Shown piece after piece: positions 27,760 through 32,567 of a stretch of 64,000 nt of DNA. The DNA lies in assembly GCF_000177675.1 (NCBI RefSeq), contig NZ_ADGX01000013.1, forward strand, positions 1 through 64,000, in the 5' to 3' direction. A program made the position numbers and the translations under genes. The stretch's first letter is position 1, and the number at the start of each line of letters is the position of its first letter. Origin of the DNA: Parafrankia sp. EUN1f. GTDB taxonomy: Bacteria; Actinomycetota; Actinomycetes; Frankiales; Frankiaceae. The notes under the pieces are model-generated. The model saw only the letters and a program-made list of their open reading frames with translations, searched no databases and was not told where the DNA came from.

Positions 27760-27769
27760 CGGCCCTGCG

Positions 27770-27806
27770 CCGGACGGCCGTGGCCTGCCGGGCCACGGCC
27801 GTCCGG
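27770..27806 (+). terminator. Terminator hairpin after ctaB
   Basis: A perfect 16-bp stem (CCGGACGGCCGTGGCC and its complement) with a 5-nt loop, 10 bp after the ctaB stop. There is no T-run. Confidence 0.8.
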
Positions 27807-27891
27807 TCGCGACGGCGGGCCGCGGTGGTGAGGCTCGCGTTTCACCAACGCGGCGGGCCCCCTGATCCCGACGGGACGAGTCCGAAGATCT

Positions 27892-27925
27892 GAGGATTTC
27901 GGTCGCTGGAACGACGACGATCCTC
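27892..27925 (+). repeat. Dispersed hairpin repeat, copy B
   Basis: GAGGAT..GTCG pairs with CGAC..ATCCTC around a short CTGGAA-type loop, with a mismatched internal loop. It is followed by GACTCTTCGAG, and about 70 bp later by copy C, which has the same CACTCTTCGAG tail. Confidence 0.75.
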
Positions 27926-27987
27926 GACTCTTCGAGTGGCGGCTTCGAGTCGTGGTCGAGGCTGGCGTTTGCCGCCGGGCAAGACCT

Positions 27988-28020
27988 GAGCCTTTGGTCG
28001 CCGGAACGACCAAAGGCCTC
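27988..28020 (+). repeat. Dispersed hairpin repeat, copy C
   Basis: CCTTTGGTCG (27991-28000) pairs perfectly with CGACCAAAGG (28007-28016) around CCGGAA; flanking GAG/CTC extends the stem past a one-base bulge. It is preceded by GCCGGGCAAGA, the same spacer seen before copy A at 54.4 kb. Confidence 0.8.
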
Positions 28021-28474
28021 CACTCTTCGAGCGGTGGCTTTGAGCTGCCGCCGGTTCGCCGGCCAACCCGGTTCGCCCCGTTATCGATCTTGGCTGCATT
28101 CTCCACCGTGTCGCTGGATGCGATCCGCCGACGGGCTGGATCTGGCCGGCTGCCAGCCAGCTCCTGCGGGCTGCCAACCGGCCCCCTGACCGGGTCTTGT
28201 CTTCGGCGCCGTCCTGGTGGCGCTCGCCCGCCTGAGTGGCCGGCGGGCTTCGGTTGTCGGAACGGTCGAGGTGGCCAAATCAGTCGACGGAATTTCGGTG
28301 GCGGCCTCCCCTGCGCGGCCAAGAATGACACGTAGGCGCATCCGTGCAGGTCAGAGCGTCGGCTATGGGTATTGAAAACGGCTCGCGACGATGCTGGACG
28401 CACGGCCCGCCGGAGCGCATCCGCAGCTGGTAGCCGTGTTGCAGGTCACACCGCGCGCCGTTTCGTGCGGCTTG

Positions 28475-28499
28475 CGGGGAACACTGTGCGCATTCCCCG
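28475..28499. promoter_or_regulatory. Inverted repeat upstream of the oxygenase gene (operator candidate)
   Basis: CGGGGAA (28475-28481) and its complement TTCCCCG (28493-28499) are separated by 11 bp and lie about 90 bp before the start of the accessory cluster, as expected for a dimeric repressor site. The regulator is not identified. Confidence 0.4.
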
Positions 28500-28586
28500 A
28501 ATTCACGGCGGCCTTTCCGGTCGTCGCTGGATTCGCCGGTGGCCAGGCCGCCGTGCCAGGGTGATCGGCGGACGGAAGGATTTCCA

Positions 28587-29486
28587 ATGGGCGGTACCGC
28601 GGCCGCGAACGTGAAAGCGACTTCGCCTTCGGCAATCGAGGACGTGATCGACACGGATCGCTATCCGGTGTGCTCGTGGCCCGACGGGGCCGCGGGTGAG
28701 CTTGTCGGGGACGTCCGCCGGCAGCTCGCGGATACCGGGTGCTGCGTGCTGCCGGATTTCGTCCGACCCAGCCTGCACGCCCGGCTGCGCGACGAGTGCG
28801 CGACGCTCGCGCCGTCGGCGCACTACGACGCCGAGACCGTCAACGTGTACAACATCGACGCCGACGCGGAGCTGCCGCCGGGGCATCCCGGCCGGGTCGG
28901 AATGCTGCGCGGCAACGCCTTCGTGGCTCGCGACCGGATCCCCTCCGACCACGTCATCCACCGGCTCTACGTCAGCACCGCGTTCCAGTCGTTCGTCGCG
29001 GCCTGCTTCGGGCTACCGGCCGTGCACGAGCTCGCCGACCCGCTTTCGGGCCTGTGCCTGAACGTCGTCGTGCCTGGTCAGGAACACCCCTGGCACTTCG
29101 ACACGAACGAGTTCACCGTCAGCCTGCTCACCCAGGGCGCGGACGCCGGTGGTGTGTTCGAGTACTGCCCGGGAATCCGATCCGCCGAGGCGGAGAACTT
29201 CGACGACGTGTCCGCCGTTCTCGCCGGCGGAACCGAAGGGGAGCGTTTCGTCCACCGGCTGGACCTGCGGCCCGGTGATCTCCAGCTCTTCCTCGGGCGC
29301 TACTCGCTGCACCGGGTGAGCCGGGTCGGCGGCGCCACCCAGCGGCACAGCGCGATCTTCGCCTACAGCGAGCGACCCGGGGTGGTGGGCAGCGTGTCGC
29401 GCACGCGGCAGCTGTTCGGCCGGGTCCTGCCGGAGCACCTGGCGGCGGCACGCCGCGCCGTGCGGGTGGACGGACTGCTCGACTGA
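28587..29486 (+). CDS. Fe(II)/2-oxoglutarate-dependent oxygenase (HalD/BesD-like fold family)
   Basis: A 299-residue double-stranded beta-helix oxygenase. The iron motif is HFD (His170, Asp172), with the distal His242 in YSLHRVSRV and a 2-oxoglutarate-binding Arg shortly after (TQRHSAIFAY). The blocks FTVSLLTQ..GGVFEYCPGIRS and LRPGDLQLFLGRYSLHRV recall the family of free-amino-acid halogenases/hydroxylases (HalD/BesD), but the Asp that halogenases replace by Gly is present, so a hydroxylase is expected. GGAAGGA lies upstream of ATG 28587. It is the first gene of a three-gene set with a methyltransferase and a carnitine-type acyltransferase. The substrate is unknown. Confidence 0.75.
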   Translation: MGGTAAANVKATSPSAIEDVIDTDRYPVCSWPDGAAGELVGDVRRQLADTGCCVLPDFVRPSLHARLRDECATLAPSAHYDAETVNVYNIDADAELPPGHPGRVGMLRGNAFVARDRIPSDHVIHRLYVSTAFQSFVAACFGLPAVHELADPLSGLCLNVVVPGQEHPWHFDTNEFTVSLLTQGADAGGVFEYCPGIRSAEAENFDDVSAVLAGGTEGERFVHRLDLRPGDLQLFLGRYSLHRVSRVGGATQRHSAIFAYSERPGVVGSVSRTRQLFGRVLPEHLAAARRAVRVDGLLD

Positions 29487-29602
29487 GTTCTCCGCGCGGT
29501 CGGTCCGCGCATTCACCTCGCATCTCGGCCAGGTACCCGGCGGATCATCCAGCTTTCGCCGAGCGGATGGATCCGCTGAGCGGAAGGAGAGGAGCGCCAG
29601 CC

Positions 29603-30445
29603 ATGGAATTCGACGCGACTGGAAAGGTCTCGCTCGAACACATCTACACGCAGCCGGATCCGCGGGCCTATTTCCGTACGCTGCGGGTGCTGGATTATCA
29701 CATTCCGCAGCTTGCCAAGCCGTACTTCTCGAAGGTCGCCGACGAGTGCCGGGAGACTCGCCCCGGCCGGCCCCTGCGGGTGCTCGACGTCGGCTGCTCC
29801 TACGGGATCAACGCGGCGCTGCTGAAGCTCGACGTCTCCATGGACGAGCTGTACGACCGGTACGACGGAACCGACGTCGGGCGGTCCCGGGCGGAGCTGG
29901 TCGCCCGCGACCGGGCGCTGGCCCGCGACCGCGGCGGGCTGCACGACGTCGAGGTGATCGGCCTCGACACGTCCCAGCCGGCGCTCGCCTACGCGTACGA
30001 GGCAGGCTTTCTCGACGGTGCCGTGCACGCCGACCTGGAGACCCGGGACCTGACCGAGCCTGAGCGTGCCCTGCTCGCCGACGTCGATCTGGTCGTCTCC
30101 ACCGGCTGCCTCGGCTATGTCACCGATCGCACGCTCGCCCGGATCGTCGCGGCTGTCCGTGACGGCGGCCGGCGCCCGTTGCCGTGGATGGCGCATTTCG
30201 CGCTGCGGATGTTCCCGTTCGACCCGATCGCCGAGCTCCTCGCCGGGTACGGGTACCAGACGGAGGCGGTGGGCCGGCTGTTCGAGCAGCGACGGTTCGT
30301 CTCCCCGCGGGAGCAGGAGCAGGTGCTGGCGACGCTCGCCGGGGTCGGGGTGGACCCGGCTGGCCTGGAGGCTGATGGCTGGCTGTACGCCCGCCTGTTC
30401 GTCTCACGTCCACCCGAACCGGACCCGGGCGTGGCCACGCTGTGA
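29603..30445 (+). CDS. SAM-dependent methyltransferase-like protein
   Basis: A 280-residue protein with a class I methyltransferase fold. Motif I is LRVLDVGCSYGINAALLK (near residue 55), an acidic motif II lies in YDGTDVGRS, and VDLVVSTGCLGYVTD corresponds to motif IV. The N-terminus (HIYTQPDPRAYFRTLRVLDYHIPQ) is unlike common families I can name. GGAG precedes ATG 29603 at 8-nt spacing; an upstream start at 29567 is less supported. It begins 116 bp after the oxygenase and 163 bp before the acyltransferase, on the same strand, so the three probably share a pathway. The acceptor (N, O or C) cannot be told. Confidence 0.75.
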   Translation: MEFDATGKVSLEHIYTQPDPRAYFRTLRVLDYHIPQLAKPYFSKVADECRETRPGRPLRVLDVGCSYGINAALLKLDVSMDELYDRYDGTDVGRSRAELVARDRALARDRGGLHDVEVIGLDTSQPALAYAYEAGFLDGAVHADLETRDLTEPERALLADVDLVVSTGCLGYVTDRTLARIVAAVRDGGRRPLPWMAHFALRMFPFDPIAELLAGYGYQTEAVGRLFEQRRFVSPREQEQVLATLAGVGVDPAGLEADGWLYARLFVSRPPEPDPGVATL

Positions 30446-30551
30446 GAGCGTTTCGGGGATTACTCCCGGTATCTGATTGTTTCGCAACAGCCTGACCTGC
30501 CTGGCGCGACCAGAACCGCGACCGGACACCGCGCAAGCGAGCCACCGCACG

Positions 30552-30602
30552 ACCAGAGCCACCACGCAACCAGAGACACCACGCAACCAGAGACACCATG
30601 CA
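30552..30602 (+). repeat. Three 17-bp tandem repeats before the acyltransferase
   Basis: ACCAGAGACACCACGCA three times with one or two changes. The array ends 6 bp before the chosen start codon, so it lies in the ribosome-loading region. Confidence 0.85.
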
Positions 30603-30608
30603 ACCGAG

Positions 30609-32567
30609 ATGAGGATGACGCTGCGCATGACCGTCCAGACGAGCCAGGGACCGGCCGCGAACAGCGCCGCCACAGCGGCCGCCGCCGCTGCCGCTGGCAC
30701 CTTCGACCATGAGGACGACCTGCCGCGCGTTCCGCTGCCCACCCTGGAGGACAGCTGCGCGCGGTTTCTCCAGTGGTGCGCCCCGCTGCTGTCCCCTGAG
30801 CAGCTCGCCGCGACCGAGGCCGAGGTGGCACGCTTCCGCGCGCCGGACGGCCCGGGCCCCCGGCTGCACGCCGAGCTCGCCCGCTACGACGTGAGCGACG
30901 GCGTGCACAGCTGGCTGGACGAGTTCTGGCCGGCCCGCTACCTCGGTCGCCGCGACCGGATCGCACTCAACGCCAACTTCATCTTCCTGTTCCGCACTGC
31001 CGCCGAGGCCGAGACCGGGGCCGCCACCGAGGTCGCCGGCGACGGCGACGGCTCGACCCCCTCCACCGCCGCGGGGCCGCAGCTGGGACGTGCCGCCGGC
31101 CTGATCGCGGCCGCGCTGGACTACAAGGTGCGCCTGGACGCGGAGCGGATCCCGCCGTTGCTGCGCCGCGGCCAGCCGCAGTCGATGGTGCAGAACCGGT
31201 ACCTCTTCTCCACCACCCGCATCCCCGGCCTGGTGCAGGACACCGTCCGGGTGCCCTACAGCGCCGAGTGGCCGGGGCCGTCCGACGCCCGCCACATCCT
31301 GGTCTTCCACGGCGGCCGCATGTTCCGGCTCGACGTCCTCGGCCCGGACGGGTCGCCGCACACGCTCGACGAGCTGACCGCCGGCCTCGCCGCGGTGCGG
31401 GCGGCCGCCCCGGCGCCGGCGCCGGACGAGACCGCCGTCGGCCATCTGACGACCAAGGCCCGGGCCGACTGGGCGGAAAGCCGCGCCGCGCTGCTCGCGC
31501 TCGACCCGGCGAACCAGGCCGCGCTCGACGAGGTCGAGACGGCGCTGTTCTGCGTGTGCCTCGAGGCCGTGGCCCCGTCCGATGAGCTCGCCGCCTGCGA
31601 TCAGCTGCTTCATGGCAGCGCCGCCGGCCGCTGGTATGACAAGGCCGTGTCGCTGATCGTTTTCCCCGACGGCCAGGCCGGCATCAACGTCGAGCACTGC
31701 GGGCTCGACGGCACCACCATCCTGAGTTTCGTCGACGAGCTGCTCGCCGCGCCCGCCGCCGAGCTGTCGGCCCGCTCCGGGGCCCGCCCGCAGGGGCAGC
31801 CGGCGGTGCGTCCGGTCGAGTTCGTGCTCGACGACGCGCTGCGCGCGGACATCCGGGCGGCGGCGGAGTCGTTCGCCGCGTTCGGCGCCGGCACCGACTC
31901 GGTGACGCTGTCGTTCCCCGACCACGGCGCGAGTCGGGCCAAGGCTTTGCGGATCTCCCCGGACGCGTTCGTGCAGATGGCCTACCAGCTCGCCCACCAC
32001 CGGGCGAAGGGGTTCGCCGGAGCGACCTACGAGTCGATCGCGACCAGGCAGTGGCGGTACGGACGCACCGAGGCGATGCGCGTTGTCACGCCGGAGGTCC
32101 TGACCTTCGTCACGACGATGAACGACCCGGCGGCCGACGCGGACGCCCGCCGCGCCGCGCTGCGCGACGCGGCGGCCGCGCATGTGCGCCGCGCCGGCGA
32201 GTGCCAGCGCGGCGAGGCGCCCGAGCAGCATCTGTGGGAGCTGGCGTTCATCCAGCGCCGGGCCGGTGCCGAGCTGGGCGTGCCCGAGCCGTCGCCGCTG
32301 TACGAGACGCCCGGCTGGCTGGTGACGCGGGACGACTACCTGAGCACCAGCTCCGCGCCGTCGGAGAGCATCCGGTACTTCGGTTTCGGCTCGACCAGCG
32401 GCCACTGCATCGGCGTTGCCTATGTGCTGCTGCCCGACACGCTGAACATCTACCTGAGCACGCCGCGGCCGGCCGCCGCCGGGATGCACGCGTTCGCCGA
32501 TCGGCTCCGCGAGGCCCTGCGCGAGCTCGACGAGCTGCTCGCCGGTGACCCCGCGGCAACCGGTTGA
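30609..32567 (+). CDS. Choline/carnitine O-acyltransferase family protein
   Basis: A 652-residue protein matching the carnitine/choline acyltransferase fold, which moves acyl groups between CoA and a hydroxyl on a quaternary-amine alcohol. The catalytic His is in INVEHCGLDGTT (near residue 363). TYESIATRQWRYGRTEAMR corresponds to the family's TYExxSTRxFxxGRTExxR signature that helps bind CoA and substrate carboxylate, and YFGFGSTSGHCIGVAY matches the C-terminal active-site strand. Such enzymes are usual in eukaryotes and uncommon in bacteria. ATG 30609, 30615 or 30627 are all possible. It is the third gene of the accessory cluster, which suggests acylation of a product that the first two enzymes hydroxylate and methylate. 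Confidence 0.85.
   Translation: MRMTLRMTVQTSQGPAANSAATAAAAAAAGTFDHEDDLPRVPLPTLEDSCARFLQWCAPLLSPEQLAATEAEVARFRAPDGPGPRLHAELARYDVSDGVHSWLDEFWPARYLGRRDRIALNANFIFLFRTAAEAETGAATEVAGDGDGSTPSTAAGPQLGRAAGLIAAALDYKVRLDAERIPPLLRRGQPQSMVQNRYLFSTTRIPGLVQDTVRVPYSAEWPGPSDARHILVFHGGRMFRLDVLGPDGSPHTLDELTAGLAAVRAAAPAPAPDETAVGHLTTKARADWAESRAALLALDPANQAALDEVETALFCVCLEAVAPSDELAACDQLLHGSAAGRWYDKAVSLIVFPDGQAGINVEHCGLDGTTILSFVDELLAAPAAELSARSGARPQGQPAVRPVEFVLDDALRADIRAAAESFAAFGAGTDSVTLSFPDHGASRAKALRISPDAFVQMAYQLAHHRAKGFAGATYESIATRQWRYGRTEAMRVVTPEVLTFVTTMNDPAADADARRAALRDAAAAHVRRAGECQRGEAPEQHLWELAFIQRRAGAELGVPEPSPLYETPGWLVTRDDYLSTSSAPSESIRYFGFGSTSGHCIGVAYVLLPDTLNIYLSTPRPAAAGMHAFADRLREALRELDELLAGDPAATG

Follow-up and report, generated by a model that had tools for sequence, protein, structure and literature searches.

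Introduction

In carnitine biosynthesis, an N-methylated amine is hydroxylated by Fe(II)/2-oxoglutarate (2OG) enzymes (trimethyllysine dioxygenase and gamma-butyrobetaine dioxygenase) and the product is O-acylated by a carnitine acyltransferase. Choline/carnitine acyltransferases (PF00755), such as carnitine O-acetyltransferase (CrAT, PDB 1nm8) and choline O-acetyltransferase (ChAT, 2fy2), are best known from eukaryotes. A further group of described enzymes, the halogenases BesD, HalA, HalB and HalD and the lysine hydroxylase Hydrox (PDB 6nie, 9oer, 7u6i, 7u6h and 7jsd), shares one fold and forms a carrier-protein-free family. Here we analyze a window of 64,000 nucleotides from contig NZ_ADGX01000013.1 of Parafrankia sp. 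EUN1f, which contains a cassette of genes for an Fe(II)/2OG oxygenase, an S-adenosylmethionine (SAM)-dependent methyltransferase and a homologue of CrAT. The three genes form one evolutionary unit, and in each product the residues that are typical of its enzyme class are conserved. We consider it slightly more probable than even that the three enzymes of the operon constitute a dedicated module for biosynthesis by methylation, hydroxylation and O-acylation.

The cassette shares its reaction logic with carnitine biosynthesis, but its oxygenase belongs to another 2OG subfamily, a small-molecule-type SAM methyltransferase is encoded within the operon, the acceptor site of the acyltransferase is re-wired, and the aldolase/aldehyde dehydrogenase step of the carnitine route has no counterpart. 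According to the original prediction, no bacterial pathway with this combination is known to have been described; in agreement with this, no description of such an operon was found in the open-access literature on carnitine acyltransferases with Frankia, Streptomyces or Actinomadura. The enzyme families are known. Their combination appears to be new, as do the conservation of this gene set and the re-wired acceptor site.

Results and Discussion

Conservation of the cassette as one unit

As predicted originally, the cassette consists of three co-directional genes; all are complete open reading frames (ORFs) on the forward strand (28587–29486, 29603–30445 and 30477–32567) whose products match Pfam families above the cut-offs. 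In a sample of 35 genomes from the Frankia-like order, genes for the oxygenase, the methyltransferase and the acyltransferase were all present in the same 30 genomes and all absent from the same 5. A GTDB-wide scan with an alignment of the acyltransferase yielded 434 relatives, of which the best 80 were kept for locus comparison, and 79 of these loci were testable, the 80th being located at a contig start with its upstream side cut off. At all 79 testable loci a 2OG gene lies directly upstream of the acyltransferase gene, and at 67 of them the methyltransferase (METHYLTRANSFERASE) gene sits between the two. The kept loci include Frankia, Parafrankia, Pseudofrankia, Actinomadura, Nocardia and Streptomyces and also come from Salinispora, Micromonospora, Saccharopolyspora, Amycolatopsis, Gandjariella and Actinokineospora. 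The co-occurrence of the three families, which had been proposed as a check, was indeed found. Pairwise distances of the three cassette proteins correlate with r values of 0.88–0.91, none of 999 shuffles being as high, as expected for genes inherited together.

The cassette had been regarded as accessory and as lacking core-genome neighbours, and both views proved to be wrong. An accessory island was rejected because the cassette occurs in 30 of the 35 genomes of the order and adjoins core genes, with a UbiA-family gene (heme-O synthase-like) on one flank and genes of the inositol-monophosphatase family and for a class I tRNA synthetase on the other. Clustering of the neighbours of the 80 loci revealed no other gene that is conserved across genera beside the cassette, the flanks being genus-specific, and a larger biosynthetic cluster was rejected on this basis. 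The neighbour analysis also bears on the possibility that the cassette tailors a natural product that is synthesized elsewhere, the oxygenase hydroxylating a larger tethered or peptidyl substrate that the acyltransferase would then acylate. Although 2OG enzymes and acyltransferases often act as tailoring enzymes and CrAT-fold pockets can diverge, we consider this unlikely, as the flanks differ by genus, a common biosynthetic cluster is absent from them, and the fold of the oxygenase is of the carrier-free amino-acid type.

The methyltransferase and its linkage to the acyltransferase

The methyltransferase (29603–30445, forward strand, 280 amino acids) matches the Pfam profiles Methyltransf_12, Methyltransf_25 and Methyltransf_11 above their cut-offs. 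Its AlphaFold2 (AF2) model, with a predicted local distance difference test (pLDDT) score of 91.6, has a Rossmann-type fold with structural matches to class I methyltransferases at Z scores of about 14. In the glycine-rich motif I (VLDVGCSYG), D62, S66, Y67 and G68 are invariant and G64 and C65 nearly so. The predicted SAM methyltransferase is thus a class I SAM-dependent enzyme with an intact motif I. Sequence profiles found no solved relative, and the matches of the fold search were spread broadly over class I methyltransferases.

In four organisms (Ca. Frankia californiensis, Frankia sp. CiP1_Cm_nod1, Streptomyces specialis and Gandjariella thermophila) methyltransferase and acyltransferase are encoded by a single uninterrupted frame. 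Such fusion proteins of about 900 amino acids with a short linker were seen at loci L106 (7131–9839), L121, L148, L157 and L093. At 12 of the 79 testable loci, from the Streptomyces lydicus group, S. zagrosensis, Salinispora and Amycolatopsis anabasis, the methyltransferase gene is missing between the pair, as might be expected if the genes were co-inherited without belonging to one pathway, for instance if the oxygenase and the acyltransferase formed the pathway and the methyltransferase were a neighbour. However, a related methyltransferase is encoded elsewhere in 11 of these 12 genomes and this finding, together with the fusions, leaves such an arrangement with little chance of being right. 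The unlinked methyltransferase genes have different neighbours in the Streptomyces group than in the Salinispora group, and these neighbours offered no clue to a pathway. Among 247 genomes of the class, 23 encode a related methyltransferase, 20 of them of the strong cassette type and three standing alone in genomes without the acyltransferase, a contrast which is suggestive and not a formal test since the genomes of the class are mutually related. Taken together, the co-occurrence in 30 of 35 genomes, the adjacency of oxygenase and acyltransferase genes within genus-specific flanks, the methyltransferase copies elsewhere and the fusions argue for one functional module.

Two observations on copy number and distribution were made in addition. 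One genome (G025) carries two partial cassettes (L088 and L089), one with a 2OG gene, a methyltransferase remnant and an acyltransferase gene and the other with methyltransferase and acyltransferase genes only, so that the genome still has all three functions. PF00755 acyltransferases were scarce, being found in 5 of the 396 genomes of an actinobacterial phylum sample, and a divergent actinobacterial homologue (L182, 1471–3153; 28% identity, 292 bits to PF00755) showed neither oxygenase nor methyltransferase in the fetched flank.

The acyltransferase and its acceptor site

The acyltransferase ORF (ACYLTRANSFERASE; 30477–32567, forward strand) opens at a TTG at 30477, the likely start being an ATG at 30609, 30615 or 30627. 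Its product matches PF00755 with 509.7 bits (cut-off 22.3), covering profile positions 1–573 of 574, and by family-profile comparison it is homologous over its full length to human CrAT (1nm8, E 2.5e-91) and ChAT (2fy2, E 7e-80), CPT2 also being homologous. The roles of the CrAT residues H343, K419, K423, D430 and E453 have been described (PMC11852590). The catalytic His (His407 in ORF numbering, 31695–31697), the STS motif and the GATYES..GRTE block are kept in about 97 of 102 relatives, the remainder being mostly mis-framed translations, which bears out the catalytic His and TYES..GRTE motif of the original prediction. Besides the STS motif, equivalents of H343, Tyr452, Thr465 and Phe566 are conserved, as are those of K423, D430 and E453 in the CoA site, the last two as invariant columns in an acyltransferase alignment.

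The cassette enzyme is bacterial, is encoded in an operon with a putative hydroxylase and differs from CrAT and ChAT at the acceptor site. Across the family, Thr467 of CrAT is changed to Ala and M564 to Phe, and the position of Arg518, which is Arg in CrAT and CPT2, is occupied by Gln584 (32226–32228), Gln being found in 95 of the 102 relatives. We take Arg518 of CrAT to bind the carboxylate of carnitine; ChAT presumably has Asn at this position. With Gln in place of this carboxylate-binding Arg, the enzyme is unlikely to use carnitine itself as its acceptor. If bulky residues at position 564 restrict acyl length, as we assume, the Phe at this position, where CPT2 has Gly, suggests that a short acyl chain is transferred.

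These residues also bear on whether the cassette makes and acylates carnitine, or a true analogue of it that has a free carboxylate, as an osmolyte or to buffer acyl-CoA. The reaction logic of methylation, hydroxylation and O-acylation would be the same and the equivalents of Thr465, Tyr452 and Phe566 are kept. Such a product is nevertheless quite unlikely given the replacements of Arg518 and Thr467, an oxygenase that is not of the TauD/gamma-butyrobetaine hydroxylase type (13.2 bits to TauD, cut-off 27), and the result of the neighbour clustering, in which the aldolase and dehydrogenase of the trimethyllysine pathway were not conserved beside the genes. Of the carnitine- or betaine-like route that had been proposed originally, the co-occurrence of the three families therefore stands, whereas the likeness to carnitine is one of analogy only.

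The oxygenase

The oxygenase (28587–29486, forward strand, 299 amino acids) belongs to the HalD/BesD family. It matches the HalD profile PF23169 with 40.1 bits (cut-off 26), profile searches found HalB, the lysine hydroxylase and BesD, and its AF2 model (pLDDT 91) aligned with HalB, Hydrox, HalA, BesD and HalD at VIA-align Z scores of 20.5–21.4, the next group scoring 16.6. It is only 14–19% identical to these enzymes. The iron ligands H170 (29094–29096), D172 (29100–29102) and H242 (29310–29312) are invariant in 97 of 97 cassette oxygenases, and R253 is the probable 2OG ligand. The HxD..H ligands and the likeness to free-amino-acid hydroxylases and halogenases that had been noted before were thus borne out by alignment, profile and fold. 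Radical halogenases of this family have HxG at the iron site, the lack of a carboxylate ligand being needed for halide binding, whereas the cassette enzymes, like the hydroxylase members, have HxD without exception. Because the HxD...H triad is intact and the carboxylate ligand is retained, the identity as a halogenase was rejected, and the oxygenase is predicted to be a hydroxylase.

Closer relatives of the oxygenase outside the cassette (41–46% identity) were seen at loci L070 (9292–11104), L071 (8380–11671), L072 (7806–9865) and L073 (9471–11493). An M24 creatinase/prolidase-like gene adjoins those at L071, L072 and L073 and a 3-hydroxyisobutyrate-dehydrogenase-like gene adjoins those at L070 and L071, hinting that a hydroxylated or N-methyl compound is catabolized. 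Directly 3' of more distant relatives (31–37% identity) lies a gene for formaldehyde-activating enzyme (Fae, PF08714), which overlaps the oxygenase gene at several loci. Such pairs are located at L075 (2277–3619), L076 (9127–10439), L077 (8684–10017) and L080 (9659–10920), with neither acyltransferase nor methyltransferase nearby. In the 396-genome sample, 7 of the 16 Fae-bearing genomes (G200, G244, G264, G286, G347, G356 and G392) have such an oxygenase relative directly beside the Fae gene. The adjacency to Fae suggests an undescribed Fe(II)/2OG N-demethylase coupled to formaldehyde capture.

Oxidative N-demethylation is, on account of these relatives, the main rival for the role of the cassette oxygenase. 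The enzyme would then work either in concert with the methyltransferase or against it, and the hydroxyl acylated by the acyltransferase would be of other origin. However, the Fae-linked relatives occur without the acyltransferase and methyltransferase and differ at positions that are fixed in the cassette, such as E148, H167 and N174, the genome of the window has no Fae, and an acyltransferase that always adjoins the oxygenase fits hydroxylation better. We regard a demethylase in the cassette as distinctly improbable.

Predicted pathway

In the biosynthetic module that we favor, the SAM methyltransferase would methylate an amino-acid-derived amine, N-methylation being most likely. The HalD-family enzyme would then hydroxylate an unactivated C-H of the small molecule. 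In the last step the CrAT homologue would acylate the new hydroxyl from acyl-CoA, probably with a short chain of acetyl to butyryl length and with the conserved catalytic His serving as the base. A small acylated hydroxy-amine would probably result, namely an amino-acid-like compound that is hydroxylated, probably N-methylated and esterified with an acyl group at oxygen. It would be analogous in its logic to acylcarnitine or acetylcholine, though probably neither of them. The order of the steps, the substrate, the acyl length and the biological role are all inferred here.

Several findings weigh against this scheme. Fae next to distant relatives of the oxygenase hints at N-demethylation elsewhere in this family. 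The acidic residues common to the solved lysine and ornithine enzymes, a Glu in the DE+Y stretch and an Asp after HWx, which we take to bind lysine, are not conserved. Profile alignments give Leu/Ala and Thr at these places, and the HWxD of HalB and Hydrox corresponds to HFDT in the cassette oxygenase. A free amino acid is thus not assured as substrate, and a simple diamino acid bound in the manner of BesD seems unlikely. The 3'-phosphate of CoA is bound by two lysines in CrAT, and as the equivalent of one of them, K419, is not conserved in the acyltransferase, the acyl donor could differ. No related methyltransferase was detected in the genome of Amycolatopsis anabasis, which has oxygenase and acyltransferase, indicating that methylation is not strictly required, and conversely the three standalone methyltransferases mentioned above occur without any acyltransferase.

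The same gene set, usually with the methyltransferase, appears to be present in hundreds of actinomycetes from soil and plant symbioses. In this bacterial PF00755 branch (434 GTDB relatives) the acyltransferase is coupled to the putative hydroxylase at every testable locus examined and to a methyltransferase in most genomes. This would imply that antibiotic producers, opportunists of the genus Nocardia and nitrogen-fixing Frankia symbionts of plants share a widespread small molecule that nobody has sought. All three enzymes are candidate biocatalysts: the putative C-H hydroxylase, the methyltransferase and the acyltransferase, whose acceptor site is altered. As a tentative proposal, about which we are rather doubtful, mycelial actinomycetes may make a hitherto unknown family of acyl esters with short chains, the esterified compound being an amino-acid derivative that is hydroxylated and either quaternary or N-methylated. 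They would be made by the three-gene cassette, which has been conserved in the Frankia symbionts of plants as well as across families; these esters might be a bacterial counterpart of acylcarnitine or acetylcholine and act as signal, acyl buffer or protectant.

Genomic context

The genome of the window is a high-GC actinobacterial genome of 9.35 Mb with Frankia, Parafrankia and Pseudofrankia as relatives. Neither RNA elements nor tRNAs were found in the window, and PLSDB gave no match that would indicate carriage of the cassette on a plasmid. The cassette is preceded at its 5' side by an intergenic leader of 0.8 kb (27760–28586, no strand assigned). This leader holds a direct repeat of 52 nucleotides (27898–27949 and 27993–28044), whose core has no further copy within the window and whose two copies, 79% identical, are spaced 95 bases apart.

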